Notes under the pieces: model-generated
Database searches by the model: none
The model's input: the letters and a program-made list of their open reading frames with translations, nothing else
What the model was told of the DNA's origin: nothing
Program-made: the position numbers and the translations under genes
Assembly: GCF_900176595.1 (NCBI RefSeq)
Contig: NZ_LT838813.1
Span: forward strand, 3,118,001 to 3,182,000
Length of the DNA: 64,000 nucleotides
Direction: 5' to 3'
DNA from: Aquiflexum balticum DSM 16537
GTDB lineage: Bacteria; Bacteroidota; Bacteroidia; Cytophagales; Cyclobacteriaceae
Shown here: positions 38,289 to 63,309 of the stretch, piece by piece
How the letters are laid out: every line of letters begins with the position of its first letter
Position numbering within the stretch: the first letter of the stretch is position 1

Positions 38289-38305
38289 AAAAAATAGAAA
38301 TATAG

Positions 38306-38336
38306 GGTAACATCCTCTAACTGGTTCGGATATAGA
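38306..38336 (+). promoter_or_regulatory. Island promoter motif 2 (before tssB unit)
   Basis: GGTAAC at 38306-38311 and GATATA at 38329-38334, 17 bp apart, followed by GA; 34 bp before the tssB start and just behind the tssH terminator. Confidence 0.7.
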
Positions 38337-38369
38337 CATATAAACCTTTTAACAAAAAAATTTAAAATC

Positions 38370-38822: not shown

Positions 38823-38859
38823 TAAATGATAAAAAGTATAATCTAAACAAAATAGAGAT

Positions 38860-40227: not shown

Positions 40228-40307
40228 TTATGCTAGGATTTCGGGTTATTCCCGGATGATCAAACATAATATTTTAACTAATTATTATTTAACTAAATTT
40301 TAAAGCT

Positions 40308-40697: not shown

Positions 40698-40779
40698 CAG
40701 TCCATTTGAAGGTGATGGACTGACCATCACCTTCTCTCCTTAATGTTTAAGTTATCTTATCAATTAATTCACCATAGCC

Positions 40780-41169: not shown

Positions 41170-41185
41170 CCTAAAAAACAATGCC

Positions 41186-42985
41186 ATGCCACAGATAGTC
41201 ATCACAGGAATCAAAATTGATAACAAACCTATCAAGCAGTTTACCTCATTTGTTTTGGAGCAAAAAATCAGTGAGCATCATTCTTTTTGTTTGGTATGCC
41301 CGACTGAGGCCATAGATGGAACAACCGGAGTGATATTTAACCAATCGAAAAATCTAATAGGTGCGCCGATATCTGTTTTGATGGAATCCTTGGGTACTTC
41401 TGGTCAAATGGAATTCCTGGGATTGGTGACCCAAGTGGAGACATCCAAATTCAGTGGTCATGCCGGTGAGCTTATTCTTTCAGGTTATAGCCCTACCATT
41501 CTTCTTGACCATTTGCCACACTGTCAAAGTTGGGAAGAAAAAAACATCAAAGATATTGCAACAGACCTGACCAAGGCTATTCCAAAAGAAATACTTTCGG
41601 CGCAATTGGAACCTGTTTTTAAGGATAAATTGCCATATACCGTTCAGTACAAAGAAACATCCTGGCAATTTTTGAAAAGAATCTGTAGCATCCATGGAGA
41701 ATGGCTTTTTTACAATGGGGAAAAACTGGTTTTGGGTTCTCAGAAGAGCAAACCTGTAAAGCTTCAGTTTGGCAATAACCTCAGCAATTTTAGAATGGCC
41801 TTGGAAGTCAAAGCATCTGCTTTTAAGATGGTGGCATATGATTATCTGAATAACGAGGTCTATAAATCCAACCCTAAAAATATGCCTTCTTTCTCTGGAC
41901 TAAATGATTTGGGGAAGTTTGTCTTTCAAAAAAGTGAGTCATTTTATCCTCAGGACGCAAAATTTTGGAACAACAATGACTTAACCAATAAAAAGCAGTT
42001 GGATGATTTTGTGCATACGCGTTCTGCTATGCAGAATAGTCATATGGTCCAAATGAAAGGTCAGAGTGGACATCCGGGATTAGAAGTTGGAGGTCTTGTC
42101 GATATCAGTGGAAAAAATGTATTCAATCTCTCGGATGAGTCTTTTGGGGAATATACTGTGATTTCAATAATACATCAGTGCGACGGACAGGGAAACTACA
42201 GCAATGAATTCGTTGCAATTCCCTCATCTCTGAAAATGCCTCCCACGCAAAAAATTGAAGAACCAATATGTGAAGCACAGAGTGCCATGGTGACCGACAA
42301 CAATGATGAAAAAGGCCTGGGCAGGGTGAGGGTAAAATTCCATTGGATGGAGGGGAATGAAAAGAGTCCCTGGCTTCGGGTGACGACACCCCATGCCGGT
42401 GGTGGCAAAGGCATGTTTTTGATGCCTGAGAAAGGGGAGGAAGTGATTGTAGGTTTTGAAGGAGATAGTCCAACCAAGCCTTATGTAATTGGCAGCGTCT
42501 ATAATGGCAAAGCAAAATGTTCTTTTGCAAATGGAGGAAATGATGTCAAAGTCTTGCAAAGTAATAGCGGCAATAAGCTAGTTCTGAACGATAAGGATCA
42601 AAGTGTATTGATAGAGGATGCAAAAGGAAATATGTTGATGATAGATGGGAAGGGGAATATTAATATAACCTCTTCAGAGAGTATAAATTTTACCTGTGGA
42701 GAATCAAATGTGGAATTGAAAAAAGATGGCTCAGTATCCATTAACGGTAAAAACCTGAATTTCGGAGCAACTGAAAATTTGGATGCATCAGGAGGAAAAA
42801 AAGCCACCTTTTTTAGTGGTCAGGCTTCTTTTTCAGCAGACGGTGGATCCAATGATGCAAGCATGTCTGGAAACAATGCCAACATCAGCGGAAGCATGGA
42901 AACCAATGTTAGTGGTGGATCAAAAACTACAGTGAGTGCCACAGGAAAAGTGGCTGTTCAAGGTGCTATTGTAGCCTTGAATTAA
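41186..42985 (+). CDS. vgrG: T6SS spike protein VgrG (TssI)
   Basis: A 599-residue spike. The gp27-like N-terminal part spans about 1-360; the gp5 OB-fold is marked by AMVTDNNDEKGLGRVRVKFHW and WLRVTTPHAGGGKGMF, and GEEVIVGFEGDSPTKPYVIGSVYNG. The C-terminal 120 residues are rich in G, S and N with short beta strands, fitting the triple beta-helix needle. No enzymatic tail is fused, so effectors must attach otherwise, most likely through the PAAR-like Rhs protein downstream. Confidence 0.93.
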   Translation: MPQIVITGIKIDNKPIKQFTSFVLEQKISEHHSFCLVCPTEAIDGTTGVIFNQSKNLIGAPISVLMESLGTSGQMEFLGLVTQVETSKFSGHAGELILSGYSPTILLDHLPHCQSWEEKNIKDIATDLTKAIPKEILSAQLEPVFKDKLPYTVQYKETSWQFLKRICSIHGEWLFYNGEKLVLGSQKSKPVKLQFGNNLSNFRMALEVKASAFKMVAYDYLNNEVYKSNPKNMPSFSGLNDLGKFVFQKSESFYPQDAKFWNNNDLTNKKQLDDFVHTRSAMQNSHMVQMKGQSGHPGLEVGGLVDISGKNVFNLSDESFGEYTVISIIHQCDGQGNYSNEFVAIPSSLKMPPTQKIEEPICEAQSAMVTDNNDEKGLGRVRVKFHWMEGNEKSPWLRVTTPHAGGGKGMFLMPEKGEEVIVGFEGDSPTKPYVIGSVYNGKAKCSFANGGNDVKVLQSNSGNKLVLNDKDQSVLIEDAKGNMLMIDGKGNINITSSESINFTCGESNVELKKDGSVSINGKNLNFGATENLDASGGKKATFFSGQASFSADGGSNDASMSGNNANISGSMETNVSGGSKTTVSATGKVAVQGAIVALN

Positions 42986-44398: not shown

Positions 44399-47300
44399 AT
44401 GCCTGAGGTAATAAATAGAAATCAAAAAATAGCAATCGCTGCCCAAAGAGCCAAAGAGCAAAGGGAGGGAAATTCCAAAAGAAGTGAAAAGAAGTCAACT
44501 GTTGGTCAGGTCATCGATTCGGCAAACACTGCCTTGGGGGCTTATGGAGATGTGATGGGATTCGCAAACAACCTCAGTGAAAAAGCCTTACTCCCAGTCC
44601 TGCAGCAATTGAGTTTCATACAAGGCATAGCTTGTCTTCCTGCAAGTTGTCATATGGATCCTGTGACAGGAATAGATGTGCACCTTGTCATGATACCACC
44701 CTCACCAACACCTGTTCCCATGCCACATCCTTATCTGGCTATGATAATGGATCCCAAAGATTGGTTGAGCTGTGCGGTCATGACAGTGGCAGCTATGGCA
44801 GCCCCAGTTCCAACAGGAAATGAGGATTCAGATGCAGCAGCCAGTCTGGCATTTAACGTGGGTACCATGGCTTTGGGCATGACGGGATTGGATGCATCGG
44901 TCAAATTGGGTGGATTTACCCCAAGGACCACCAGTGGGGTCAAAAATAAAACCATACCGCATTTTCCTATGGGGGCAAGTTTTGCTCCCCTACCTGTGAA
45001 AAGAAATTCAGGACATGCCCAGTTTGGAAGTCTTTTTTTGAATGCGGATAGCAATCCTTTTACAGGAATGATGCACCTCAACAACGACTGTTGGGATATT
45101 GGCTTGATGCAACTGAAGCGGAAACAATATTCCCCTCAACCTGGAAGTTTTTTTATGCCTACGGGTTTTGTTATGGCTATCCCATCTCACAATGTCATTG
45201 TCAACCCTGTGCCGACTCCGGTAAATCCTGTTGCTGTAGTTACCAAACTTTTTAATGCAGGATTTGCCAAAGTCCTTCATGGTGCCACCAATAAAATGGT
45301 AAAAGGTAAGCGATCAAACGATGCGATCCATAAAGCCATTTGCCATGTTACCGGTCACCCTGTAGATGTGGTCAGCGGCATGTTCTTTACAGATGAAGAG
45401 GACTTTTCACTTCCTGGGGTAGTACCTATATCTTGGGAAAGAACCTGGTTTAGTGACAGTGAATATGATGGACCTCTTGGACGGGGATGGCATCATGAAT
45501 ATGATATGGGTTTTAGGATAGATGGAGGGAACATGGCCATTTTGAGATTGAATGATGGTAGATTGGCTCTGTTTGATATTCCCGGTCCTGGTGATTTTTC
45601 ATTCAACAGAGAAGAAAAACTCTTTTTGCATGCAGATGAAAATAGCACTTATTATATAGTAGACAGTGAGGGATTATATTACCGATTTACCGAAAAGGCT
45701 TTTGGAAAAACCAAAAACGAAGAAGAACACCTGCTTCAGAGCATCTCGGATCGGGCAGGTTATGCCATTAGATTTTTATACAACAGACTTGGGAATCTGA
45801 TCCGCATTATAGACAGCGCAGGTCGGGAACTTCTGGTTTCAAACGACATGCAAGGAAGGATTACAAAGATCCTTGCCCCCCATCCCGAGATAGAAGGGGA
45901 ATTGTTCTCCATCGCCCAATATACCTACAGTGATGAAGGGGATATGATAGTCCAGACAGATGCACTTGGGCAAAAGATGTTGTTCGAATACCGCAACCAC
46001 ATGATGGTAAAAGAAACATGGAGAGACGGTCAGGAATGGCATTTTGTATATGAAAAACCCATCACAGGGAGCCGTTGTATTGAAACATGGGGAGAGGATG
46101 ATCTTTATCACCATAAGCTCAAATACTACGAAGGGCTGACCCTAGTGGAGGATAGCCTGGGACATCTCACCAAATACTATCACAAAGATGGACTTCCCTA
46201 TAAAAAAACTGATGCCAATGGAAATGATTGGCTATTCAGATACAATAAATACCATGAACTGGAATGGGAAACGGATCCCTTGGGCAATCAGCGTGCCACA
46301 GCCTATGACAAGTGGGGCAATTTATGCAATACCACAGATCCATGTGGAGGTTTTACCCATGCGGAGTATTTCCATCCTGATTTTAAACAGTTACCTACTG
46401 AGGCCATGGACAAATCAGGAGGAATCTGGAACTGGCAATACGACGACCAGGGAAGGGTAACCAAACTGACCAACCCTCTCAAAGCAGTATCTAGGTATAA
46501 ATATGATGATGGGCTAATGGTGCAGTCTATTGCTGCATCGGGTGCGGAGACAGAATTTCAATATGATAACCATCAAAACCTGACTGGCATTTTGGATGGA
46601 AACGGAGCCAATACCTTTTTTCAATTTGACAGATTGGGCAATTGTGTAGGTGTGACCAATCCCAAAGGAGCCAAGCAAAACATAATGTTTGACCTAAAAG
46701 GAAGGGCAACCAAAATATATGATTATGATGGCAACATAATTCATTTGGAATATGATGGGCTAGATAATGTGATCCGCTATAAAGACAAACAAAAGGAAGT
46801 CAGCTATACCTACAAAGGTCTGTGGAAATTGACAAGCAGAACTGAGTCGGGTGCTACACTCTATTTCAATTATGATACCGAAGAGCGCCTACAAAAACTG
46901 GTCAACGAACACGGGCATCCATATAGGTTTACACTCGATCCTGTTGGCAATGTTGCAGAAGAAGTAGGATTTGATGGAATCACAAGGACATTTGAGAGGA
47001 ATGCGGCGGGATGGGTAACCCGCATCAAGCGTCCAAATAATAAATTCACCCTATTTACCCATGATCCATGCGGAAGGATTACTGAAGTCATCTACAGTGA
47101 TGGTACGAAGGAAAAATATAACTATCATACCGATGGAAGTCTTTCGCGTGCTATTAACGATGCTGCCCAAGTAGCTTTTGAAAGAGATATTATGGGCAAT
47201 ATCATCAAGGAATCAGTAAATGGAGAATGGGTAGTATCCGAATATGATGCTTTGGGAAACAGGCTTACTATCCAAAGCAGTCTGGGAGCGGCTATCTCCC

Positions 47301-48784
47301 ATCAATACAATGCCCACGGAGACCTGTTGCAAATGGAATCCAAGGGATGGAAAGCACAGCTAAAACATGATAATATGGGAATGGAAGTGGAAAGAAGACT
47401 TCCCGGAGGTATTATCAGCCAATGGCAACGGGATCTGATTGGAAGGCCATTACAACAGAAAATTGGTATCCAACAAGGAGAAGTAATCCATCATAATAAG
47501 AAAAGGGATTATCTATGGGAGGTAAACGACCGTTTGAAACAAATCAAAGATGATAAAGGCATTACTTATTTTGAACATGATGGCTGGAGTAATCTTGCCA
47601 AAACAACTTATCCCGATGGTGAAGTACAGTTGAGGAATCCAGATGCAGTCGGAAATCTGTTCACGACAGTTGATCGCAAGGACAGAAACTATGGCAGGGG
47701 TGGTCAGCTTAAAAAAGCCAATGGTTGGGAATATGCTTATGATGGCGAAGGGAATCTGATAGAGAAAAAACATATCAGTGGAGAGCGATGGCAATATGTG
47801 TGGAATGATGCCGGAATGTTGGTTCAGGTAATCCGTCCTGATAAAGAGGCTGTTTCTTTTTGTTACGATGCATTGGGAAGAAGATTAAGCAAGCAATTTA
47901 AAAATACAATTACTAAATTTGTTTGGGATGGTAATGTTCCACTGCATGAGTGGAAGGAGCACGCCCTTACTGGTCAGAAACTCAGTGAGGTCAGGTTAGG
48001 GGAGAATGGGATGATTACTTGGCTTTTTGACACAGACAGTTTTGCGCCTACAGGAAAGATCAAAGGTGAAAAAAACTACAGTATCCTGACAGACCATCTT
48101 GGGACTCCACATCAGATGTACCAAGAAGATGGGGGTCTTTTTTGGGAAGGGGAACTGGACAGTTTTGGTAAAATCAGGACAGAAAAAGGAGATTTGGGTT
48201 CTTGCCCATTCCGGTATCAAGGGCAGTATGAAGATGTAGAGACGGGGCTGTATTATAATAGATTCAGGTATTATGGAGTAGAAGAGGGGAGATATCTGAG
48301 CCATGATCCTTTAGGAATGACAGGGGGTTTAAATTTATATAGTTTTGTGCCTGACACAAATATATTTCTGGATTTATTTGGGCTAGCGAAAACCTATGAC
48401 AAAAATGCAAAGCGTTGGAGAGATCCTAAAACTGGACGCTTTACTTCAAAACCTACAAGCCCTTCTGATCTTTTATATAATGGTCGTGTAAATTTTCATG
48501 ATGTGCAACAATGGGCAAGAGAAAACAATTTACCAAATAATTGGCACCCCAGTTCAACATTCCCTAGCGGAGGTTTTAGTTTTAATGATGGTAGTTATAG
48601 AATCCATGGACATGGAAGAAATCCAAATGCTGTTCAAAATTTTCCTAATTCCAATGCTGCAAATGGTCCTACAACTTCTCTCAAGAATTCTTCGGGTCAA
48701 AATCTTAGAACAAACGGAACCTGGGGCACATTTAATTCAGATCCAAACGGAGCTCATATACCCATGGATAATTCACCTTATTAA
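44399..48784 (+). CDS. PAAR-like Rhs polymorphic toxin, T6SS effector
   Basis: A 1461-residue effector. Residues about 60-320 hold PAAR-like sections (VTGIDVHLVMIPPSPTPVP; LNNDCWDIG; VIVNPVPTPVNP) with hydrophobic stretches in between; DUF6531 follows at about 318-375 (GHPVDVVSGMFFTDEEDFSL); YD/RHS repeats fill 380-1265; the core closes with YQGQYEDVETGLYYNRFRYY and SHDPLGMTGG (about 1300), where Rhs proteins cut themselves. The variable toxin is about 1331-1461 with YRIHGHGRNPNA, SNAANG and GAHIPM. This reminds me of polymorphic toxin type 30, a proposed RNase; that name is unverified. It would ride on VgrG and be injected into rivals. Confidence 0.88.
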   Translation: MPEVINRNQKIAIAAQRAKEQREGNSKRSEKKSTVGQVIDSANTALGAYGDVMGFANNLSEKALLPVLQQLSFIQGIACLPASCHMDPVTGIDVHLVMIPPSPTPVPMPHPYLAMIMDPKDWLSCAVMTVAAMAAPVPTGNEDSDAAASLAFNVGTMALGMTGLDASVKLGGFTPRTTSGVKNKTIPHFPMGASFAPLPVKRNSGHAQFGSLFLNADSNPFTGMMHLNNDCWDIGLMQLKRKQYSPQPGSFFMPTGFVMAIPSHNVIVNPVPTPVNPVAVVTKLFNAGFAKVLHGATNKMVKGKRSNDAIHKAICHVTGHPVDVVSGMFFTDEEDFSLPGVVPISWERTWFSDSEYDGPLGRGWHHEYDMGFRIDGGNMAILRLNDGRLALFDIPGPGDFSFNREEKLFLHADENSTYYIVDSEGLYYRFTEKAFGKTKNEEEHLLQSISDRAGYAIRFLYNRLGNLIRIIDSAGRELLVSNDMQGRITKILAPHPEIEGELFSIAQYTYSDEGDMIVQTDALGQKMLFEYRNHMMVKETWRDGQEWHFVYEKPITGSRCIETWGEDDLYHHKLKYYEGLTLVEDSLGHLTKYYHKDGLPYKKTDANGNDWLFRYNKYHELEWETDPLGNQRATAYDKWGNLCNTTDPCGGFTHAEYFHPDFKQLPTEAMDKSGGIWNWQYDDQGRVTKLTNPLKAVSRYKYDDGLMVQSIAASGAETEFQYDNHQNLTGILDGNGANTFFQFDRLGNCVGVTNPKGAKQNIMFDLKGRATKIYDYDGNIIHLEYDGLDNVIRYKDKQKEVSYTYKGLWKLTSRTESGATLYFNYDTEERLQKLVNEHGHPYRFTLDPVGNVAEEVGFDGITRTFERNAAGWVTRIKRPNNKFTLFTHDPCGRITEVIYSDGTKEKYNYHTDGSLSRAINDAAQVAFERDIMGNIIKESVNGEWVVSEYDALGNRLTIQSSLGAAISHQYNAHGDLLQMESKGWKAQLKHDNMGMEVERRLPGGIISQWQRDLIGRPLQQKIGIQQGEVIHHNKKRDYLWEVNDRLKQIKDDKGITYFEHDGWSNLAKTTYPDGEVQLRNPDAVGNLFTTVDRKDRNYGRGGQLKKANGWEYAYDGEGNLIEKKHISGERWQYVWNDAGMLVQVIRPDKEAVSFCYDALGRRLSKQFKNTITKFVWDGNVPLHEWKEHALTGQKLSEVRLGENGMITWLFDTDSFAPTGKIKGEKNYSILTDHLGTPHQMYQEDGGLFWEGELDSFGKIRTEKGDLGSCPFRYQGQYEDVETGLYYNRFRYYGVEEGRYLSHDPLGMTGGLNLYSFVPDTNIFLDLFGLAKTYDKNAKRWRDPKTGRFTSKPTSPSDLLYNGRVNFHDVQQWARENNLPNNWHPSSTFPSGGFSFNDGSYRIHGHGRNPNAVQNFPNSNAANGPTTSLKNSSGQNLRTNGTWGTFNSDPNGAHIPMDNSPY

Positions 48785-51429: not shown

Positions 51430-51460
51430 GGTAACAAATTGATTATATGTTTGATATAGA
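51430..51460 (+). promoter_or_regulatory. Island promoter motif 4 (before 51570 gene)
   Basis: GGTAAC at 51430-51435 (then AAA) and GATATA at 51453-51458, 17 bp apart, followed by GA. The gene begins 109 bp downstream. Confidence 0.7.
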
Positions 51461-51569: not shown

Positions 51570-52109
51570 ATGAAAATTACAATATTAATTTTCACAACTG
51601 CCATCCTATTGGCTTATGGGAACAGATCCTCTGATGACTTAAGGTTCGTTTCAGCCTTTGCTAATCAACTTAGTTCATTGGATTTAAGAATTTCAGGAGT
51701 TCCAAGGATCGGAACGTATATAGAGATTAACCCATGTCAGGTGGAAGATTCTCGTTTTCAGGAAAGTGGCACTTTAGATCCAAGATTAATAGGAAATTGG
51801 ACTCAAAGCCAAAGATATAATTCTGGAGATTATTCACATGTCACTTCAGGTACGATCGGATTTTCCAAAGAGGGAAAATTATATGTCTATGAAATTACTT
51901 CTCGTGCAAGTATTCCTGGTTTTTACATAAGCGAGGACTCCGACACTAAGGTGATTGCCATGGTTGAAATGTTTACTAAAGACAATGAAATATATGTAAT
52001 TCATCCGGAAACCGGAAAATCAATGTTTTTTGTAAAGTATCAAATCAACGGGAGTTACCTGCATACGGTCACTGAAGATGGAGCCAAAGAAATGTGGGTG
52101 AGACTATAA
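51570..52109 (+). CDS. Small secreted protein, LDPxxxGxW family, member 1
   Basis: A 179-residue exported protein (hydrophobic start MKITILIFTTAILLAYG). Central motif GTLDPRLIGNWTQSQRYNSG, then a beta-rich part with GKLYVYEIT, IYVIHPETGKSMFFV and a C-terminal DGAKEMWVRL. Two paralogues lie at 52162 and 54332 with the same length and motif order. The GxW start followed by an up-and-down beta region recalls lipocalin-like folds. Function unknown; its promoter motif ties it to the T6SS island. Confidence 0.7.
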   Translation: MKITILIFTTAILLAYGNRSSDDLRFVSAFANQLSSLDLRISGVPRIGTYIEINPCQVEDSRFQESGTLDPRLIGNWTQSQRYNSGDYSHVTSGTIGFSKEGKLYVYEITSRASIPGFYISEDSDTKVIAMVEMFTKDNEIYVIHPETGKSMFFVKYQINGSYLHTVTEDGAKEMWVRL

Positions 52110-52161
52110 ATTATTTTAATTAAATATTTTCCATCGGATTTACAATTTAAATAACATTATT

Positions 52162-52701
52162 ATGAAAAAGCCATTAATAGTTTTAAGCCTTGCCATGTTG
52201 CCTTGGATAGGCATCGTGGCGGGAATTCTTCAGATCAATGGACTGAAGATTAATAAAGAACCCTCCAATCAAGAAAACCTAACAGCAGCATTTTATTTCG
52301 CAGGAAAATTAGATAATAACTTGGTTAATAGTATAGAAGATCTTAATCGACAGGATAGAAACTATGTAGACCCAAGGTTGGTAGGGTTTTGGACCAAAAA
52401 AAAATATTACAATTCCAATGGGTTTTCTTACGTCTATATTCAAAAAATCTCATTGGATTCTGATGGTACCCTTATCTTATACGAACCAGTATCATATTCA
52501 AGTGTGGGTCAAACCCATATTGGCCCATCATCCGATCTTAAGATAGAAACTGTTTTAAAAATCCATACAAGAGGAAACCGGTTATACACTATGTATGGTG
52601 AACCTCCTATAGAAATCTTTGTCTTTGAATTTTCTTTCAATAATAGGTATTTGCATATAGTTGGAGCAGATGGTGTAAGAGATATTTTGGAGAGGAATTA
52701 A
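52162..52701 (+). CDS. Small secreted protein, LDPxxxGxW family, member 2
   Basis: A 179-residue paralogue of member 1: YVDPRLVGFWTKKKYYNSNG replaces the LDPRLIGNW motif, with the same following strands and VGADGVRDILERN at the end. The N-terminus (LIVLSLAMLPWIGIVAGIL) is a signal peptide or anchor. It lies 52 bp behind member 1 without a separate promoter motif, so the two are probably co-transcribed. Confidence 0.7.
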   Translation: MKKPLIVLSLAMLPWIGIVAGILQINGLKINKEPSNQENLTAAFYFAGKLDNNLVNSIEDLNRQDRNYVDPRLVGFWTKKKYYNSNGFSYVYIQKISLDSDGTLILYEPVSYSSVGQTHIGPSSDLKIETVLKIHTRGNRLYTMYGEPPIEIFVFEFSFNNRYLHIVGADGVRDILERN

Positions 52702-53311
52702 TCATTTTTTTTTAGGTTTTCACTTTACCTTAATGGTAATAGGGTAAATCAACAAATTGAATTAAAGTATTAAAAATCAGTGTGGTAAATAAAAAAAGCA
52801 AAACTCAACTGGTCCCTTTTTAGAATGGTTATTAGTCACAGAAACAGTAAGGTCAGCTGCATTTAAATACGATTATGGACCGTTAATCTTTTTTTGGGTA
52901 TACACTTTAAAAAGAAATATTTGATATCCATTAGGAGGAAATATTTTTCTGACTTTAATTTTTGAGGAATTCATTTATCAATGAGTTAATAAAACCAAAC
53001 GACATGAAAAAATATTTTTTTCTGATGGCATTCCTGAAGCAGATTGTCTCCTTTGAGAAATTCTAAAAACAGAAATCATCTTAACTTTTTGTGAGACTTA
53101 AATTGCCTTAGACAATATTTCACCCGAATGGGCCATTCTTAACTTCAAGGAATGTTAGAAAATCTCAAGTCGAATCAAACCATTATTTTGGCTTACAACA
53201 TCAGTGTCTAAGATTGGTCGGTGAATCCCATTTTTATGATTATTAGGAAAACTGCAAATTCCTTCTCAAAAAGCCAAAAAATCACGGTAAGCAGATAACT
53301 CTTAAAAAACA
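52702..53311. other. Gene-poor stretch with a possible decayed secreted-protein gene
   Basis: Over 600 bp of AT-rich sequence. At 53004 a start codon opens MKKYFFLMAFLKQIVSFEKF and then stops; this looks like a signal-peptide start with the rest lost. The following 250 bp read as broken frames on the plus strand. No intact gene or terminator could be supported. Confidence 0.4.
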
Positions 53312-53342
53312 GGTAACAATTTTTTTATGACCCGGATATAGG
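53312..53342 (+). promoter_or_regulatory. Island promoter motif 5 (before collagen-like gene)
   Basis: GGTAAC at 53312-53317 (then AATTT) and GATATA at 53335-53340, 17 bp apart; 44 bp before the start codon. Confidence 0.7.
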
Positions 53343-53384
53343 ATCAAATCTAAAATCTTACTTAAATCAAAAAATTTTAAAACA

Positions 53385-54092
53385 ATGAAAAAGAAACATT
53401 CAATTTTAGGAAAATTTTTGCCTCAATTTTGGGCAGTTTTATTTGTAATGATGGTTACCTCATGTGAGTTGTTAAAAGGTGACGAAGGTCCAATTGGTCC
53501 TAAAGGTGATCCGGGAGTTGAAGGAGCAATTGGTCCAGAAGGACCTCAAGGAATTCCAGGCAATGATGGCAAAGATGGAGTTGATGGAGTTGATGGAAAA
53601 CCAGGGGACAGAGGACCCGCAGGACCTATTGGCCCCGCTGGTCCACAAGGCCCCCAAGGTCCTCAAGGCCCTCAAGGTCCTCAAGGAGTTCCTGGAAATG
53701 CAAATGTTATGGCATACACATTAACAGGGTTTAATTTCATCTGGCCTTTAGTACCATTCCCTAATGAATCCGCCAATAGAGAGGTTATTAGAACTATAAC
53801 TATGACTCAAGCAGTTTTCAATAGGACAACTTTTTTGGTATATGCCTCGGTAGGTTCTACTTGGTCTCATCTTCCAGGTTGGGGACCCTCTGGCACAGCG
53901 TATCGCGTGAATAACAGGTTTTTTTCAAATAGAGCGGAAATAAACATTAGGAGAATGTCAGGGCTTGGGGATAATTTTAACAATATAAAGATTATCACAA
54001 TTGAAACAACACCAGGTGCCCGAGTCCAACTGCCTGATATCGATTATAATAATTATGAAGAGGTTGTCAGACATTTTGGGTTATCAAATTAA
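53385..54092 (+). CDS. Collagen-like (Gly-X-Y) lipoprotein
   Basis: A 235-residue lipoprotein (lipobox VTSC, Cys27). Residues about 32-107 are some 25 Gly-X-Y triplets, many GPQ, GPA or GPK, able to form a triple helix; a C-terminal globular domain of about 125 residues follows (aromatic-rich, ending NNYEEVVRHFGLSN), probably the trimerising head. This suggests a surface-anchored trimeric stalk. It stands alone between an island promoter motif and a terminator. A decayed copy of its C-terminus is at 50954. Confidence 0.85.
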   Translation: MKKKHSILGKFLPQFWAVLFVMMVTSCELLKGDEGPIGPKGDPGVEGAIGPEGPQGIPGNDGKDGVDGVDGKPGDRGPAGPIGPAGPQGPQGPQGPQGPQGVPGNANVMAYTLTGFNFIWPLVPFPNESANREVIRTITMTQAVFNRTTFLVYASVGSTWSHLPGWGPSGTAYRVNNRFFSNRAEINIRRMSGLGDNFNNIKIITIETTPGARVQLPDIDYNNYEEVVRHFGLSN

Positions 54093-54131
54093 TTATGTCA
54101 GGTATTTTATTTTTCAGTTAAAATTTTAATA

Positions 54132-54163
54132 AAACCGCCACAGATTTTTTGGCGGTTTTTTTA
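54132..54163 (+). terminator. Terminator of collagen-like gene
   Basis: Stem AAACCGCC / GGCGGTTT around CACAGATTTTTT-like loop, T-run behind. A near twin stands at 55495. Confidence 0.8.
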
Positions 54164-54209
54164 TTGACCAGATTTTAGAGTAAAATTTTAAAAAAACATG
54201 AACTTCTCA

Positions 54210-54240
54210 GGTAACAATTACTGATTTCTCCTGATATAAA
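54210..54240 (+). promoter_or_regulatory. Island promoter motif 6 (before 54332 gene)
   Basis: GGTAAC at 54210-54215 (then AATT) and GATATA at 54233-54238, 17 bp apart; 91 bp before the start codon. Confidence 0.7.
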
Positions 54241-54331
54241 GTCAAATAATATTTTACTAATAAGCTATAAATCTTAATCAATTGGTGAAATCAATGCAAA
54301 AAATATCCTGAACTCTTAACCTTTTAAAACA

Positions 54332-54868
54332 ATGAAAAATCACTTGCTTACCTTAATTGCAGCCTTTTTTATGGCTAATGTAAATGTGGTTCTGGGACAA
54401 GGAAATACAACCTTCATGAAAATTTCCCTTCCCGCCAATTACATGTGGATGGATACTGATCTTCGATCAAATCCCCCAAAAGTACATATGGAATTCATAT
54501 CTGAACGAAATATACTTCCACAAACAGGATCATTGGATCCAAATGTCATTGGTGTTTGGGAGAATGTAGAATATTATAGTTCGGGAGAATTTAGGAATAC
54601 TACTGTCAATTGTTTCGCTATTACTAAGGATGGGAAATTTAAAAATTATGACACTGTTTCTTACTCTACTACTGATAATGTTTCCATCTATAATAGAAAC
54701 AATCCAAGTCTTTTGAATATTTTCTTAATAAGCACCAAAAATAAATTCATTTATTTAAAAGATCCCGAATCTGGAGAAGAAATGATGCTCGGAAGATACG
54801 TAGCGGGTCCAGACTATTTGCAAATTGAATTAGAGAATGGTAACAAAACTCTTTGGAGGAGAAGATGA
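54332..54868 (+). CDS. Small secreted protein, LDPxxxGxW family, member 3
   Basis: A 178-residue exported paralogue of the proteins at 51570 and 52162. Signal peptide ends near VVLGQG. Motif GSLDPNVIGVWENVEYYSSG, then DGKFKNYDTVSYS, FIYLKDPESGEEMMLGRY and ENGNKTLWRRR at the end. It has its own island promoter motif. The PEGA lipoprotein follows after 59 bp and may be read on the same message. Confidence 0.7.
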   Translation: MKNHLLTLIAAFFMANVNVVLGQGNTTFMKISLPANYMWMDTDLRSNPPKVHMEFISERNILPQTGSLDPNVIGVWENVEYYSSGEFRNTTVNCFAITKDGKFKNYDTVSYSTTDNVSIYNRNNPSLLNIFLISTKNKFIYLKDPESGEEMMLGRYVAGPDYLQIELENGNKTLWRRR

Positions 54869-54927: not shown

Positions 54928-55314
54928 ATGAAAATTATAGAAAAGCTAATCGTGATCGCAGTGCTTTTTTTAAGCACTAGTTGTGCAACCCTATTTACAG
55001 GAAGCAAACAATCTGTACAGATAAATTCAAATGTCCAAGGTGCCAGGATTCAGGTGAACGGGGTTGATAAAGGCGTAACTCCTGCCACTATCAAACTAAA
55101 AAAAGGTAAAGATGGGCAGGTGATATCTTTAGCCAACTATGGCTATGAAACCAAAATACTTCAGCCTGAAACAGGTATGAATCTAATTTCCATCATCAAC
55201 CTATTCAATATTTTTGGTTGGGGCATAGATGCGGTTTCAGGTGCACTTTGGAAATATGACCAAAAACAATATATGATTGAAATGGAACCTAGGGATTTGG
55301 TGGAAAACAGGTAA
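54928..55314 (+). CDS. PEGA-domain lipoprotein
   Basis: A 128-residue lipoprotein (lipobox LSTSC, Cys19). Start taken at 54928; the frame is open upstream but overlaps the previous gene. The PEGA motif is in INSNVQGARIQVNGVDKG and TPATIKLKKG; a hydrophobic, partly membrane-embedded stretch (about 85-105, ISIINLFNIFGWGIDAVSG) follows. PEGA lipoproteins are common surface or periplasmic proteins of Bacteroidetes. Too generic to be called a T6SS part. Confidence 0.8.
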   Translation: MKIIEKLIVIAVLFLSTSCATLFTGSKQSVQINSNVQGARIQVNGVDKGVTPATIKLKKGKDGQVISLANYGYETKILQPETGMNLISIINLFNIFGWGIDAVSGALWKYDQKQYMIEMEPRDLVENR

Positions 55315-55755: not shown

Positions 55756-56190
55756 ATGAAAGCACAGTATTATACCCTTCCACTAAGATTAGGTGATTTG
55801 ATTACAAAAAATGACCATCGTGTTTGCAATCTAAAGCAATCAGTCGCACAACATATTCATTTGATCATAACCACTTCCTATGGGGAAATGCCAACAGATG
55901 AGGATTTTGGTTGTGGAATTTGGGAACATGATTTTGATAATCTGACCAGTAGCCATAAAATCAAGGAATTGATCAGGGACTCATTACTTCAATCGGTAGA
56001 AAGATATGAACCAAGAATTCAGCAAGTTAAAATCGACCTTAAGATCAGTCAGGATGAAATAATTGGTAATGGTTGTCGGGTAAAAAAGAAAGTTACCATT
56101 AAAATTTCTGGATTATTGGCAGCAACCAACGAAAGATTTGTCTATGAGGACAGTTTTTTTATGGGGCCTTATGATTACCAAAATTTATAA
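55756..56190 (+). CDS. tssE: T6SS baseplate protein TssE (gp25-like)
   Basis: A 144-residue gp25/lysozyme-like baseplate wedge protein. YGEMPTDEDFGCGIWEHDFD and VERYEPRI are the characteristic segments of the family. TssE joins TssF, TssG and TssK in the baseplate and starts sheath assembly. Only 6 bp lie between it and tssF. Confidence 0.9.
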   Translation: MKAQYYTLPLRLGDLITKNDHRVCNLKQSVAQHIHLIITTSYGEMPTDEDFGCGIWEHDFDNLTSSHKIKELIRDSLLQSVERYEPRIQQVKIDLKISQDEIIGNGCRVKKKVTIKISGLLAATNERFVYEDSFFMGPYDYQNL

Positions 56191-56196
56191 AAAGTC

Positions 56197-58062
56197 ATGC
56201 AGGAAACCAGACAACATATCAAATCGAGAATGCTGAAAGATGCAGCAAGATTATGGGGATATACTGAAACCCAGATGGAAAACAGTTTTGATCCTTTGGT
56301 GTCTCTGTTATTTGAAGGATGCTCCGCAGAATTGGAGAAACTTTCTTCGGACATATATGCATCTAGGGCCAGGGTAATGGAACGGTTAGTTCAGGTGCTT
56401 TGCCCTGAAACGCTAACAGGTTCACTACCGGCACATGGGCTTATGTCGGCAGAACCCTTGGAAGAAGTCAGTTATGTAGATGATTCTATGCAATTTTTTA
56501 CCCAGATAAAGGAAAATAAGGGGATCGAATCCAAATCTCGTCAAACATTGGATGTCTTTTTTTCACCTATAGGCAGATTTCAAATTAAAAAGTCTGAAAT
56601 CAAATTTATGGTTGCAGGGAATAAAATCTATAAAACCAAAGGCTCCCATAAAGAGGTGCTTGGTCAATCAAAAAACTCTTTTGGTGCAGCTGTATGGATT
56701 GGTATTTCAGGTACATCAATCGATCTAGATGGATTGATGGTATATTTTGATACTGTTTTATCGGGTGACAAAAGCATGTTTTCACATTATCTGAATAAAT
56801 CCCGTTGGTTTTACAATGAAAATGTATTGGAAAATACTGTTGGATTAGCAATTTCTGAAAACAGAAATTTAGAATCAATATTAAAATTCCGTCAAACCAA
56901 AAGCTCAAATGTTTTGCAGCAGGTTGTAAATAACGTGGAATTATATTATGGGCCTAATTTTATTACCATACATGACAAGGATGGCATAACTCAAGTTGCT
57001 ACAAATGCACATATCGAGGAAAAAATACTTCAAGGATTTGATGCCAAAATAGCCGAATCGGTTATTGAATCAGATATAAGGTGGGTAAGGATTCAGTTTC
57101 CGGAGCCATTTGCAGGTTTTGATTTTGATAACCTGATCTGCAGGACGAACTGTTTTCCGGTAATTAATAGACAGATTCATCAAATTACTTATTCGGTCAG
57201 AGATTTAGTGAATATTATACCCCTTCCCAGTGAGGATAACTTTCTCGATTTGGAAAAGATCCAGTTGAAAGAGGGAGATAATGATTCGCAAAATTTGCTA
57301 AACACCGGAGATAATCAGCTCCCAATTGTTTTGCAAAGAAACGGATCCATTGGAAGATTTGATGAAAGGGATGCCAAAGGGCTATTGGATAATTTGATCG
57401 ACGTTCTAAGGCAGGAAAGTGCCTCATTTGCGAAGTTTAATAATGATTTTATTTATGCAGAAGTAAAAAAGCTTCAACAGATATTCAATAAAATAGAGCA
57501 TGTATTGAATGAAAAACAGACTCCCAAATTCTCTTCCCCATTTTTGTTGGTAAACCAACATGAGTCCTATCAGGAAAAGAATATTTGGATAACCTATAGT
57601 AGTACACTTGGACCTAAAGCAAATCATATCAGACCAGGAACCATCCTTCATGCCTACAACAGTCAATCATTTGTTTGTCAGAATAATGAGCTTGTCACAA
57701 GTTGTATCGGAGGAAGGGAAAAGTTAAATGTAAATCAATCGATTTTGGCTTTTAGAAGTGCATTGCTTTCCCAAAATCGAATCCATTCACTGGAAGATAT
57801 TAAGGCGTTTATAATGGGGCAGTTGGGAGATGTGGTGGAACAGGTTGATATCAATAGAACAATAAGGGTGAATCCTGATCCAAAAATTGCTTTTGAAAAG
57901 ATAATAGAAGTAAATGTTGGTTTGAGGGATGGAGCTTTCGAAGGAGTTACAAGCGACCGATTCATTGATTATTGGGAAAAAAACCTTGCCAATCAATTGG
58001 ATAAAAACTCTTTGACCTGGTTCCCAATTAAGGTTTCTTTAAACAAGACTAGAATTAAATGA
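56197..58062 (+). CDS. tssF: T6SS baseplate protein TssF
   Basis: A 621-residue baseplate wedge subunit, of the usual TssF size. The N-terminal part (SFDPLVSLLFEGCSAELEKL, RARVMERLVQVLCPE) and the C-terminal RINRT..NPDP segment fit the subtype iii form; the middle is variable. It binds TssG as a 2:1 wedge. Followed by tssG after 7 bp. Confidence 0.85.
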   Translation: MQETRQHIKSRMLKDAARLWGYTETQMENSFDPLVSLLFEGCSAELEKLSSDIYASRARVMERLVQVLCPETLTGSLPAHGLMSAEPLEEVSYVDDSMQFFTQIKENKGIESKSRQTLDVFFSPIGRFQIKKSEIKFMVAGNKIYKTKGSHKEVLGQSKNSFGAAVWIGISGTSIDLDGLMVYFDTVLSGDKSMFSHYLNKSRWFYNENVLENTVGLAISENRNLESILKFRQTKSSNVLQQVVNNVELYYGPNFITIHDKDGITQVATNAHIEEKILQGFDAKIAESVIESDIRWVRIQFPEPFAGFDFDNLICRTNCFPVINRQIHQITYSVRDLVNIIPLPSEDNFLDLEKIQLKEGDNDSQNLLNTGDNQLPIVLQRNGSIGRFDERDAKGLLDNLIDVLRQESASFAKFNNDFIYAEVKKLQQIFNKIEHVLNEKQTPKFSSPFLLVNQHESYQEKNIWITYSSTLGPKANHIRPGTILHAYNSQSFVCQNNELVTSCIGGREKLNVNQSILAFRSALLSQNRIHSLEDIKAFIMGQLGDVVEQVDINRTIRVNPDPKIAFEKIIEVNVGLRDGAFEGVTSDRFIDYWEKNLANQLDKNSLTWFPIKVSLNKTRIK

Positions 58063-58069
58063 AATATAA

Positions 58070-59059
58070 ATGGAAACTACCGAAAAATTGTATCAACTGA
58101 TCAAAGTATTAAAAAGCTCATCGTTGGATGTTAAAGCTGAAGCGTATTTGGCAATTGCAGGAGTTGATGGGATTAATCAGGATCAATTTATAGCTCTAAA
58201 TTCCGGGCCATTTAAAAGGACGTTCCAAAAAGACGTTCAGGATGTTTCCATTGAGGAGGATGGGGCGCATCAAGAATTTATCGCTATTAAACTCAACAGA
58301 GAGGGGATTTATGATTTGCTTCCAGAGGGGATTTTCCACCATTCCAATGAAACAAAAAAAAGAGATGTTGGGAGTCATGGAATGGCATTGGAGGTAAGAA
58401 GAAACAAAATGATTGAAGGAGAATGTAGGAAGTTTTTTGCGCCTTTGGAAAATGCCCTTTTTGTTCAAAAACTGAATTTGGAATCTGAGGAATATTCAAT
58501 GATTCAGGGCTTGGACTTTGGAGAAATGGATTTTGATCTTATGGGGTTTTATGGTCTTCCATTGGATTTGCCAAAAGCTTTTATTCCGGGATTCTTGAGA
58601 ATAATGCCATACAAACAATTGGTCTCCAGTGATTTTCAAGTGGCTGAAAAAGTCCTTTCATTGATGATAAGCCATCCTGTGGAATTCAAATTAATTCATA
58701 AAACCGAAAATCAATGTGTATTCTCAGATCAGGATCAAAATCATGAAAATTTTGGGTTATTGGGAACAGGGTCGGTTTTGGGAGATTATTTCCCTTCCTA
58801 TGATCCAAAGATCAAGACATTCATTGGACCTATACATGAACATGAGCTGCCAGAGTACCTAGAAGGTGGTCAAAAAAAAAATGTATTGGATAGGTTTTAT
58901 AGAATTTTTCTGCCTTTGGATATGGATATCGTAACCGAGATTTCTGTAAGGGAAGATAGTCTGAATATGGATTTGAAAAATATGGCAGGGCCATATTTGG
59001 GATATTCCAGTGCTTTAGAAAGTACAGAAATACTGGATTTGGTAAGTGAAATAGTTTAA
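58070..59059 (+). CDS. tssG: T6SS baseplate protein TssG
   Basis: A 329-residue protein in the tssG position and of matching size. Recognisable pieces are weak (AEAYLAIAG, FLRIMPYKQL, GTGSVLGDYF, LFRIFLPLDM-like), as TssG diverges widely. The call rests on order (E-F-G-N-K-O), size and those pieces. It bridges TssF and TssK in the baseplate. Confidence 0.8.
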   Translation: METTEKLYQLIKVLKSSSLDVKAEAYLAIAGVDGINQDQFIALNSGPFKRTFQKDVQDVSIEEDGAHQEFIAIKLNREGIYDLLPEGIFHHSNETKKRDVGSHGMALEVRRNKMIEGECRKFFAPLENALFVQKLNLESEEYSMIQGLDFGEMDFDLMGFYGLPLDLPKAFIPGFLRIMPYKQLVSSDFQVAEKVLSLMISHPVEFKLIHKTENQCVFSDQDQNHENFGLLGTGSVLGDYFPSYDPKIKTFIGPIHEHELPEYLEGGQKKNVLDRFYRIFLPLDMDIVTEISVREDSLNMDLKNMAGPYLGYSSALESTEILDLVSEIV

Positions 59060-59084
59060 CTCAAATGTTTAAAATAAATATGAC

Positions 59085-59963
59085 ATGGAAAAGATGATAG
59101 AAGATGAGGTGACGAAAACCTTATTGATTTTAGGTATGGGTGTGGTGGGTACATTTTTGATTTTTTTGAAGTTAATTGGAAAGATTTATGGAGGATTCAA
59201 ACCATTCATGAAAGCTACTTTGATTTATTTATTGTTAGGTTTTATGTTATGTTCATTGATAGCTGTTTTGGCAATATGGACTCATCTAAAGGATCAGCAG
59301 CTATTTTTGATAATCTTTCAAATATATTTTTTGGTTTTGGGAATAGCGCATGTCAATTGGATAGATACATATTTAAAATGGGCGGGGAAGGAAAAATCCA
59401 TTCTGTTGGAATTCCTTTTTTCAGTTCTGCTGGCCATATCGGGAAGTATTGGATTTGTATTAGTCCATAGAATATTTGGGGGAAATGGATTGGAAATCCA
59501 AATGGCAGGAAGTATCATTTGGTTTATAGTGCCCTGGTTTGTCAAAAGAAGTTTTTACAATGCCATGGAAATACCTGAGAGGATATTCAAACTTTGGCAT
59601 TATCGGGTTAGTGAGGATATTGAAGAACCTGATGAAAGTAAATTGAAAAACTTGTTGTTGGTCAGTTTCCTGATTCAAAAAAAGATGGGTGACAAATTGC
59701 AAACCCATTTTAGAGCGAAAGCCCCATTGGACATGGATTTTGGACAACTGTTTTATTATTTCATCAATGACTACAATGAAAGGCATCCTCATGAGAAGAT
59801 TGAATTTTTGGACGATAGCGGTGAACCATTTGGATGGATTTTTTATAAAAAACCTGAAGTCTATAGTATTCAAAGGAATTATTTGGATGCTGAAAAAACC
59901 ATTTTCAACAATTCAGTTAAAGAGAACAACGTCATTATCTGCAAAAGAATAGTAGAGTCTTAA
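59085..59963 (+). CDS. tssN: T6SSiii membrane protein TssN
   Basis: A 292-residue inner-membrane protein with five hydrophobic segments (about 10-32, 40-67, 72-93, 105-130, 137-155) and a cytoplasmic C-terminal domain of about 130 residues (LVSFLIQKKMGDKLQTHF on). TssN is a Bacteroidetes-specific part that, with TssO-R, replaces the TssJLM membrane complex. The predicted cytoplasmic tail would contact the baseplate, next to TssK, its neighbour gene. Confidence 0.85.
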   Translation: MEKMIEDEVTKTLLILGMGVVGTFLIFLKLIGKIYGGFKPFMKATLIYLLLGFMLCSLIAVLAIWTHLKDQQLFLIIFQIYFLVLGIAHVNWIDTYLKWAGKEKSILLEFLFSVLLAISGSIGFVLVHRIFGGNGLEIQMAGSIIWFIVPWFVKRSFYNAMEIPERIFKLWHYRVSEDIEEPDESKLKNLLLVSFLIQKKMGDKLQTHFRAKAPLDMDFGQLFYYFINDYNERHPHEKIEFLDDSGEPFGWIFYKKPEVYSIQRNYLDAEKTIFNNSVKENNVIICKRIVES

Positions 59964-59973
59964 ACATATTATC

Positions 59974-61182
59974 ATGGAAAATTCCCGGAAATATCTGCCT
60001 GTCAACTGGGTTGATGGAATGAAATTGAATAAAAATCATTTTGTGAAGGAACATCTTGCCCACACTGCTTCACTGGTTAAATCGGTAGGATCTATGCTTC
60101 ATCCCTATAATTATGGGTTATTGCCTTATTGGGGCAAGACCCAGGATTTTAAAGTGTCTATTTCAACGGATAATCAAAATGAAGCTAGAGTTAGAATTTC
60201 TTCTTTTAATGCCATTACAAGAGGAGGATATCTGATTGATTTGGATTATGAAACAATCGAAGGAGGTTACCTTTCAATAACCCTTCCAAAAGTTGACAGG
60301 GTGCTTGCATCAAACAGTAAGGAGGATTCAAGTTATTTACTGGTTCTTCGGGTCAATCCTTTTGAAAGAACGCAATGTGGAAGTGCGGATATGGAAGAAT
60401 TACCACCAAGATTACCTTCAAGCTTACCCACTTATTCTCTTCATTTGATGGCTCATGAAGATTGGAAGCAATGGGTTATAGGGGATGCGGACCTACCTAT
60501 AGGAAGACTTCACCATCATGATGGCAGATTCTCAGTTGATGAACAATTCATTCCTCCCTGTACTGCTGTTTATAGTCATTCTGTTTTATTGGAATTGCAT
60601 GCAGACATGGAAAGGTTGCTGGGAAAATTGGAGATTGCGTCCATTCAGATTATCAGGAAAATCATATTTAAAAAACAGCAGAATGATATGGCTTTGATTG
60701 TCCAAAAGGTTTGTGAACAAGTATATCAATTCACTGCCATTCATGCCGGTTCTTTTGGGATTTCGAAATTGTTTCAACCACCTGTTATTTTGATTGAGTG
60801 TTTTATAGCTCTTTCAAGAGTAATAAAAAACACCTTGGATATTTATGAGGGTCTGGGGAAAGAAGAACTTTTGAACTATTGGAATGAATCATGTGACATT
60901 AAAAAAGGAGAGCTTGAGGTTCAATTATCAACTATTGCCAATTTGAAGTATAACCATCAGGATATTTCAAGTAGTGTGGAAAAAATCAATTTTTTTTCCA
61001 AGTATATGGACAAGTTGTTTACCAGTATGTCGAAACTTGAATACATAGGGAAAAGGAAAGATGCAGGAATATTTGTCAAGGAGCACCAAGATGCTAAAGA
61101 TAATTCTTCTTCAACTAGGGATTTTCAGACCGTTGAAGAACCTCCTGTGCCAAGCAAAAGAAAGAGTTTTTTTGTTGAATAA
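59974..61182 (+). CDS. tssK: T6SS baseplate-membrane connector TssK
   Basis: A 402-residue protein of the TssK family: LPVNWVDGMKLNKNHFVKEH at its start, SYLLVLRVNPFER and DLPIGRLHHHDGRFSVDEQFIPPC are diagnostic. TssK trimers link the TssEFG baseplate to the membrane complex and share a fold with phage receptor-binding proteins. The last 40 residues are disordered. Confidence 0.9.
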   Translation: MENSRKYLPVNWVDGMKLNKNHFVKEHLAHTASLVKSVGSMLHPYNYGLLPYWGKTQDFKVSISTDNQNEARVRISSFNAITRGGYLIDLDYETIEGGYLSITLPKVDRVLASNSKEDSSYLLVLRVNPFERTQCGSADMEELPPRLPSSLPTYSLHLMAHEDWKQWVIGDADLPIGRLHHHDGRFSVDEQFIPPCTAVYSHSVLLELHADMERLLGKLEIASIQIIRKIIFKKQQNDMALIVQKVCEQVYQFTAIHAGSFGISKLFQPPVILIECFIALSRVIKNTLDIYEGLGKEELLNYWNESCDIKKGELEVQLSTIANLKYNHQDISSSVEKINFFSKYMDKLFTSMSKLEYIGKRKDAGIFVKEHQDAKDNSSSTRDFQTVEEPPVPSKRKSFFVE

Positions 61183-61208
61183 CCAAAATCATAAAAAATA
61201 TAGAAATC

Positions 61209-61724
61209 ATGAAAAATATCTTGAATTCAAAAGAAAGGAATTATGCATTTGCTGTCTATTTGATATCCTTTGTCATTACTGTGACAATCATTATCGGTGC
61301 TGTGTATTTCAATTCATTGATTCCTAATGCTGAAAATGCACATCTTCGAAAAAGGATCAGTGATTTTGAGAATCAGATTTACGCACAACAACAATTTATC
61401 CAAGCTATGGAAGTATCCAAAACATTAATTGATTCTTTACAGGAATTGGGGTATGTACATCCGTTGATTGAAAGGAATCTTAATGAAAACCTGAGCAATA
61501 TGGATATACAAGGTGAAGGAGAGTTGTACGGAGTAATTAATAGAGACATTTTCAATTTTATGATTGAATATTCGGACCTGCATAAAAAATTGCTGGTTTT
61601 GAACAAAGATCTTCAAGATATAGAAAATCTTAAAAATGAACTTTCAAGAACTAAACTTCAATTGGAGGAAGCCAATAGAAGCCTTGATGCATATAGAAAC
61701 AGCTCAAATCTTGGTTTGAAATAA
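61209..61724 (+). CDS. tssO: T6SSiii envelope protein TssO
   Basis: A 171-residue single-pass protein: membrane segment at about 14-37 and a long helical, probably coiled-coil, outside part (LRKRISDFENQIYAQQQFIQ; LKNELSRTKLQLEEANRSL). Position behind tssK and this layout fit TssO, one of the trans-envelope parts of subtype iii. It is the last T6SS gene in the window; TssQ and TssR are not seen. Confidence 0.75.
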   Translation: MKNILNSKERNYAFAVYLISFVITVTIIIGAVYFNSLIPNAENAHLRKRISDFENQIYAQQQFIQAMEVSKTLIDSLQELGYVHPLIERNLNENLSNMDIQGEGELYGVINRDIFNFMIEYSDLHKKLLVLNKDLQDIENLKNELSRTKLQLEEANRSLDAYRNSSNLGLK

Positions 61725-61905: not shown

Positions 61906-63309
61906 ATGAAAAGTAGTAGAAATTGTTTTCTGTTCATTTCGATTGTCCTTGTCACCTTATTATTTGGATGTAAAAACACAAAAGTTTCAAAACCCTCTTT
62001 CACCTCTGAACACAAGAAAAATGAGGCAATTGTTTTTTTCAGTAATCTGGAATTTAAAAAGAATTTATCAGACTCTTTAGAAAAATTGTTAACAATTGAA
62101 AATAAAGGTGTTCTCCCAAAAATTACCAAAAAACCATGTTCTAATTGTTTGGAGTTAAGTGAACTTTGGACTGCAGAAGGATTGGACTCCTTGTTAATTA
62201 GAATAATGAACGGCCATGGGGATCGAATTGCAACTGCCGATCGTTCTACGCAAGGAGTAAATGATGGCTATGCTGTTTTTGGGCTAAATTTTTTGACATC
62301 AATGCCTGAAACTTTGAAAGAGGAAAAAACGATTGGGAAATTTATTATTCCAAAAGATATATCTTTTTCGGAAAGTGGCAATAATTTTATTGTAGGTATT
62401 TTGGATTCAGGAGTGGATTTAAATATTTTCCCTTTGGAATTTCTTTTTTTAAATTCGATAGATGACGCTTGTTTTAAAAATGAAAGGTACGGTTGGAATT
62501 TCGTGAACAATTCTTCTGATATTACAGATGGAACTATTAGTAAGCACGGTACTTTGGTAAATGCATATATACTAGAACAATTTTTAAATGAAGGAAAAAT
62601 TAGACCTAAACTGTTGAATGTTAAAGTTTTGGATAATCTAAACTCAGGAACATGTTTTGATCTGCTTTGTGGGATTCTATATGCCAAGGAAAAAGGTGCT
62701 AAAATCATCAACGCCAGTATGGGGTTTTATGATAATACCGAATACACAAATAAAACAGATTATAAAAACTCCATATTTTATATGTTGCTAGAGGAGCATT
62801 TATTACCAAATGAAATCCTCCTTGTAACAGCAGCGGGGAATATTGGAAGTTCCACCGGAAATTCCAGAAACTTGGCTCAGAACAGATTTTATCCAGCTTA
62901 CATGAGTGAAACAAATGTCAACAGGCCAAATAATGTAGTGACTGCCACGACTATAAATCCAAATTTAGAAGAAGTCAGCCCTAGACAAAACTATTCACCA
63001 AAACACGTTGATGTTGGAGTAGTTTCAGATTCGATTGAAGGTGAAATTTATAAATTTGATTATCCTTTTTTTTATCAAAATAGTGGAGGAGTTCAACCTT
63101 TCACAACCGGTTCGTCATTTGCTAATGCCATTATGACAGGCAAAATTGGAGCCAAATTCGATTTTAGACTATCTTATATGTTTAAAAATTCGCCAAAATC
63201 AGAATGGTCAGAAAAATTTCTTGATTTAGGGATTTATCAGCAGGATTCACCTAATCAACTCTCCGGATTTATTTATAAAGGTAGATATTCTCATAGAAGG
63301 GATGAATAG
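61906..63309 (+). CDS. Subtilisin-like (S8) serine protease lipoprotein
   Basis: A 467-residue lipoprotein (LLFGC, Cys22). The S8 triad is complete: Asp167 in VGILDSGVD, His214 in SKHGTLV, Ser404 in TGSSFANA, with oxyanion Asn312 in AAGN. Residues 25-155 form a prodomain-like or partner-binding part of unknown fold. It lies 181 bp behind tssO and has no GGTAAC motif. Its 3' end overlaps the next gene by 8 bp, so the two are coupled. Role (processing, anti-phage or effector) unknown. Confidence 0.85.
   Translation: MKSSRNCFLFISIVLVTLLFGCKNTKVSKPSFTSEHKKNEAIVFFSNLEFKKNLSDSLEKLLTIENKGVLPKITKKPCSNCLELSELWTAEGLDSLLIRIMNGHGDRIATADRSTQGVNDGYAVFGLNFLTSMPETLKEEKTIGKFIIPKDISFSESGNNFIVGILDSGVDLNIFPLEFLFLNSIDDACFKNERYGWNFVNNSSDITDGTISKHGTLVNAYILEQFLNEGKIRPKLLNVKVLDNLNSGTCFDLLCGILYAKEKGAKIINASMGFYDNTEYTNKTDYKNSIFYMLLEEHLLPNEILLVTAAGNIGSSTGNSRNLAQNRFYPAYMSETNVNRPNNVVTATTINPNLEEVSPRQNYSPKHVDVGVVSDSIEGEIYKFDYPFFYQNSGGVQPFTTGSSFANAIMTGKIGAKFDFRLSYMFKNSPKSEWSEKFLDLGIYQQDSPNQLSGFIYKGRYSHRRDE

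Follow-up and report, generated by a model that had tools for sequence, protein, structure and literature searches.

The window, the whole 64,000-nt stretch analysed here (G000:C1:3118001-3182000), holds a T6SSiii island, identified as such by PF17541, PF17642, PF17555 and PF17561 matches above cut-off, which correspond to the Bacteroidota-type TssC, TssD, TssN and TssO. An ECF-type sigma factor (33273..33845, + strand; TIGR02937 2.3e-15, above cut-off; 75% identical in Cognataquiflexum rubidum) has directly behind it a TPR protein (33850..34623, +), which its position leads us to guess is an anti-sigma factor. Next come a PKD-domain protein (34731..35738, +), TssP-like by its PKD domains when compared with the published TssP architecture (PMC10781749), and the T6SSiii core of ClpV/TssH, TssB, TssC, two Hcp/TssD and VgrG (35770..42985, +), with matches of 5e-232 for TssC (PF17541), 2e-48 and 8e-43 for TssD (PF17642) and 1e-35 for VgrG (TIGR01646). 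A TPR protein (43006-44373) lies between VgrG and an Rhs effector with a variable C-terminal tip (44399..48784, +), behind which small neighbour genes extend to the family described below. One of these, at 49604-50593, encodes a shorter paralogue of the TPR protein at 43006-44373 (47% over 244 residues). The stretch at 50954-51106, just upstream of the family, preserves the degraded end of another collagen-like gene (tail match E 7e-10), indicating that this slot has undergone duplication and loss. Farther on lie a collagen-like putative lipoprotein (53385..54092, +; Pfam Collagen 6e-15), kept in 4/4 Cyclobacteriaceae islands of this type, only 32% identical between two genera and an odd T6SS companion, and a PEGA-domain putative lipoprotein (54931..55314, +; PF08308 5e-7; 76% identical in C. 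rubidum). The baseplate and membrane-complex genes TssE, TssF, TssG, TssN, TssK and TssO follow (55756..61724, +; PF04965 6e-16, PF17561 4.5e-13, TssN PF17555 2e-64), with TssF, like TssB in the core, scoring below its cut-off and named partly from position. Adjoining TssO in all four islands is an S8 subtilase, a putative lipoprotein (61906..63309, +; PF00082 1.7e-14; Asp, His and Ser motifs recognised by eye) that also weakly matches T7SS mycosins (TIGR03921, 4.5e-5); in C. rubidum the S8 gene (L017:11542-12975) is followed by a CHAT-TPR protein (L017:12965-15766, PF12770 3e-34). The TssR model PF17643, a single 102-position Pfam model on which the absence of TssR is judged, found no match in the window's genome, the family below included, and, across nine Cyclobacteriaceae genomes with a T6SSiii, none that passed the cut-off.

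Three open reading frames in the slot behind the Rhs effector, singled out in an earlier note and present where it placed them, encode proteins of 179, 179 and 178 residues. Gene A (51570..52109, +) specifies an exported protein whose residues 69-179 (window 51774-52106) are predicted to form a lipocalin-like barrel, gene B (52162..52701, +) a paralogue with a membrane-anchor-like N-terminus and its barrel from residue 69, and gene C (54332..54868, +), located between the collagen-like and PEGA genes, a paralogue with a signal peptide-like N-terminus. The proposal that they form one homologous family was borne out by BLASTP against a small database (E ~3e-23 for A-B, ~5e-19 for A-C and ~2e-9 for B-C), by a search of the 5.99-Mb genome with A as query, in which B (7e-19) and C (5e-14) were the only further matches, and by a three-protein profile that recovered the A, B and C loci alone from the same genome. 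Both sequence hallmarks that had been claimed, the (L/V)DPxx(I/V)GxW motif and a turn (seen as YxS(G/N)), occur in all three proteins, and identity over the aligned parts amounts to 32% (A-B), 28% (A-C) and 24% (B-C).

Scans of A-C with Pfam, NCBIfam, PHROGs and PADLOC assigned no convincing family and found no enzymatic or toxin domain, Pfam lipocalin models (e.g. PF13648) gave no match at their curated cut-offs, and searches of plasmid and PDB sequences with the family returned nothing useful. Most weak matches, at E 0.002-0.01, were discarded as unrelated proteins, such as an aminoacyl-tRNA synthetase-like ORF. Four two-domain exported proteins (L024, L025, L027 and L028) are plausible distant homologues by sequence, as their C-terminal domain is alignable and has the VGxW start; unlike the family, they carry an extra N-terminal domain, are only 17-19% identical to A and form a separate tree group. 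In the barrel tree the six island proteins from the two carrier genomes cluster together to the exclusion of three distant relatives (97/98 support), with B paired with its C. rubidum orthologue (91/94), and L028 itself matches PF13648 only at E 0.25.

The suggestion that all three share a signal peptide stands for A and C, whose moderately hydrophobic N-termini resemble cleavable signals, but not for B. Judging by hydropathy, the basis of all these assignments, the long hydrophobic stretch at the N-terminus of B and of its orthologue (Kyte-Doolittle values of 2.46 and 2.53 across 19 residues) is closer in appearance to a membrane anchor that stays uncleaved. Inspection of A, B and C for signs of the surface exposure that the earlier note had raised as a possibility detected no lipobox cysteine and no match to T9SS sorting-domain models. 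The periplasm is the simplest location to propose for them. T6SS effectors loaded from the cytoplasm have no N-terminal export signals. The position of A-C behind a VgrG-Rhs module might suggest cargo delivered into neighbouring cells, yet the export signals or anchor on all three disfavour injection, and the domain scans offer no catalytic or toxic activity to deliver, so that the effector role entertained in the earlier note is very improbable.

Genes of the island have in common a promoter-like motif, GGTAACA-N15-18-GATAT, of which the genome has 11 copies, 8 of them inside the T6SS island; a reversed control pattern has 4. The copy at 33554 lies within the coding sequence of the sigma factor itself and is not necessarily a promoter, while the other seven stand 49-140 nt ahead of the start codons of TssP (site 34681), TssB (38306), the shortened TPR paralogue at 49604 (49511), A (51430..51457, +; GGTAACA-N16-GATAT, 138-140 nt from the start codon in both carrier genomes), the collagen-like lipoprotein (53312..53339, +), C (54210..54237, +) and TssE (55707). 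As had been anticipated, two family members thus have the island promoter, and the third, B, beginning 52 bp downstream of A with no motif of its own, is probably co-transcribed with A; the PEGA gene is probably co-transcribed with C. Spacing to the start codon is conserved between orthologues, at 50/50 nt for TssP, 64/64 for TssB, 49/49 for TssE, 73/76 for the collagen-like gene and 140/138 for A. The motif also clusters in the T6SS stretch of C. rubidum (8 of 10 genomic copies) and of two Cyclobacterium genomes (5 of 7 and 4 of 5), while nine other genomes, namely five family-lacking congeners of both carriers and four that have T6SSiii of other types, show scattered copies only. The form of the motif, with an AAC in the upstream element and another element some 16 bp further along, suits an ECF sigma factor. 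Proximity and co-occurrence suggest that the ECF-type factor at 33273 probably reads the island promoter, a pairing that predicts a sigma-factor switch for this T6SS. With the motif clustered next to an ECF-type sigma factor here and in three related islands, these genes represent a candidate dedicated T6SS regulon, and the motif provides a sequence handle for finding genes switched on together with this T6SS subtype.

A first scan of genome contigs with the family yielded no relative. Strong family matches were confined to two of 295 sampled Cyclobacteriaceae genomes, the window's own and G192, Cognataquiflexum rubidum AIY15W, and a wider sample of the same family left the count at 2/391, both carriers having the island and no family member being found in the 389 others; across the phylum (395 genomes) only weak matches were seen elsewhere. 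In 10 of the 295 genomes TssO scores above its cut-off, and those 10 include both carriers, an outcome that two randomly drawn carriers would produce with a chance of 45/43365, or about 0.001; G001, a congener of the window's organism, has neither a TssO match nor a family member. In the genomes sampled the family is hence restricted to the T6SSiii island, in agreement with the link to T6SS that had been put forward, and homologues were not found widespread in strains without T6SS, although with two carrier genomes this restriction, like the selection results below, rests on few data. The C. rubidum island is syntenic, and its Rhs-TssE interval likewise holds three family members, namely orthologues of A (L017:1557-2099, 53% identity) and B (L017:2489-3028, 55% overall) and a third copy (L017:456-986) that, at 19% identity, is no clear orthologue of C. 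Using TssE as the query to locate named islands of this type, we found that Cyclobacterium roseum and Cyclobacterium plantarum share the island plan, with the collagen-like and S8 genes and with no TssR, and have no detectable A/B/C homologue; this T6SSiii subtype therefore does not include the family as a rule. Their corresponding slot holds two small ORFs (L044:1175-1874; L045:16525-17153) with motif-like sequence upstream that the A-C profile does not match.

Comparison of the two carriers also bears on the possibility that A-C are periplasmic immunity or self-protection proteins, with barrels that protect the producing cell from its own or its sisters' envelope-acting effectors, as their export signals, their several diverged copies beside the effector region and the promoter motif they share with the weapon could suggest. 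No toxin gene was recognised adjacent to A-C, however, and the Rhs proteins of the window and of C. rubidum, 88% identical over about 1348 residues, then end in unlike tips that are followed by different genes, whereas the A and B orthologues stay in place; across these two genomes immunity to the Rhs effector is accordingly unlikely. Strong divergence, another feature ascribed to the family, holds between the paralogues but not between orthologue barrels, which are 59% (A) and 71% (B) identical to their C. rubidum counterparts, and it is the linker between signal and barrel that varies (45% for A, 21% for B). Nor does the suggested arms race fit, since the barrels are under purifying selection, with dN/dS (NG86) of 0.14 and 0.21 for the A and B pairs, a constraint that likewise counts against immunity in general, which we regard as improbable. 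Whole-gene dN of 0.27 for A and 0.31 for B, set against 0.03-0.27 for the compared T6SS structural genes and 0.49 for the S8 gene, places A and B among the faster island genes, yet under purifying selection.

AlphaFold2 modelling of full-length A from six sequences was confident only from residue 67, and because residues 1-66 were poorly modelled the barrel was modelled alone. The resulting model, built from ten sequences (pLDDT 90.9, pTM 0.77), is nearly all beta strands, with ten strands in series forming a predicted antiparallel barrel that opens with the GxW strand, as expected of a calycin fold. The last ~110 residues of A, B and C are accordingly predicted to be a lipocalin-like barrel, preceded by an unstructured, fast-evolving region, and the earlier hint of such a fold from the GxW start gains support from both the model and structural alignment. 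A Foldseek search with the barrel model gave no match at E <= 0.001; the best PDB matches by structural alignment were lipocalin-like, at Z 7-9.5, led by the Bacteroides lipocalin-like proteins 4gzv (Z 9.5, rmsd 4.0 Å, 94 residues) and 4iab (Z 9.4, rmsd 3.2 Å, 93 residues) and by potempin E (Z 9.3, rmsd 2.5 Å, 83 residues), which count as tied because they lie within 1 Z unit of one another. The fold serves many functions and says nothing certain about this one.

The potempin E match, to which the inhibitor U-Omp19 (Z 6.8) can be added, underlies the main rival explanation, in which A-C restrain the co-encoded S8 lipoprotein subtilase (61906-63309) in the envelope, in the way that Tannerella potempins control their partner proteases. 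That enzyme is present in all four islands and evolves fast (49% identity between genera), and potempin genes are co-expressed with their partner protease (PMC7296668). Against this, potempins are made as lipoproteins from genes immediately ahead of the protease gene (PMC7296668), whereas A-C have no lipobox and lie 7-10 kb from the S8 gene, beyond the baseplate genes and with S8 7 kb downstream of C; Cyclobacterium retains the S8 gene without A-C; and the tied matches include lipocalin-like proteins not described as inhibitors, which means that the fold by itself does not point specifically to inhibition. The family resembles the Tannerella forsythia protein potempin E (8ehc, 8ehd) in fold and in having a secreted protease encoded alongside, at only 16% identity, and we consider the inhibitor reading unlikely. 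The periplasmic barrels of ToxS and VtrC, at Z 8.5 and 8.0, raise a further alternative, that A-C are sensors or scavengers whose barrels bind a small lipid-like ligand and signal envelope conditions, in the manner of those Vibrio proteins. The high rmsd of both alignments (4.4-5.1 Å) speaks against it, it is not obvious why a sensor would need three diverged copies under common regulation, and no VtrA/ToxR-like DNA-binding partner was noticed beside A-C, which leaves this reading with a small share of the probability.

We tentatively favour a reading of A-C as periplasmic lipocalin-like accessory envelope proteins that serve a T6SSiii with no TssR match and form a lineage-specific exported family belonging to one Cyclobacteriaceae T6SSiii subtype. 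Their observed homology, island restriction, promoter motif, synteny and purifying selection form its basis, joined by the predicted fold, and to these we add the periplasmic location, the sigma-promoter pairing and the envelope role by inference. The three genes would be transcribed with the weapon from the island-specific promoter, probably under the ECF-type sigma factor; after export, A and C would stay in the periplasm as free processed proteins, while the N-terminus of B would probably keep that protein attached to the inner membrane. Carried on loose linkers, the barrels would most likely bind and steady a part of the membrane complex or an envelope ligand in this system where no TssR was found. 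A general role in the subtype is contradicted by the Cyclobacterium islands of the same plan, which likewise have no TssR and do without the family. Published T6SSiii systems have no identifiable TssR in 31% of cases, with co-option of other genes suggested (PMC10781749), and together with the lack of TssR matches above cut-off in the systems studied here this makes recruitment of other envelope proteins possible. The stronger proposition, that a TssR-lacking T6SSiii lineage recruited flexibly tethered lipocalin-like barrels into its membrane complex and wired them through a dedicated ECF sigma factor and promoter, strikes us as doubtful. The island nonetheless yields a small set of envelope proteins, promoter-linked and confined to it, as candidate TssR stand-ins.

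Among known proteins, the Bacteroides lipocalin-like exported proteins (4gzv, 4i95, 4qrl, 2m4l) come from the same phylum and resemble the family in being exported and in their ~110-residue barrel with a GxW start, while differing in sequence (11-21% identity, Z up to 9.5); we know of no report of such proteins in T6SS islands. For the many T6SSiii in which TssR, TssO or TssQ is not found, published work raised the question of what replaces them and put forward co-option of other genes as a possibility (PMC10781749). TssQ and TssR of the Bacteroides fragilis T6SSiii are, as A-C would be, envelope proteins encoded in T6SSiii loci. TssR differs from A-C as a ~790-residue lipoprotein with a vWA-like domain, and TssQ is helical (PMC10781749), whereas the folded domain of the family is all beta in the model, for which reason B was dropped as a TssQ substitute; a membrane helix at the N-terminus is nevertheless present in TssQ and, it seems, in B.
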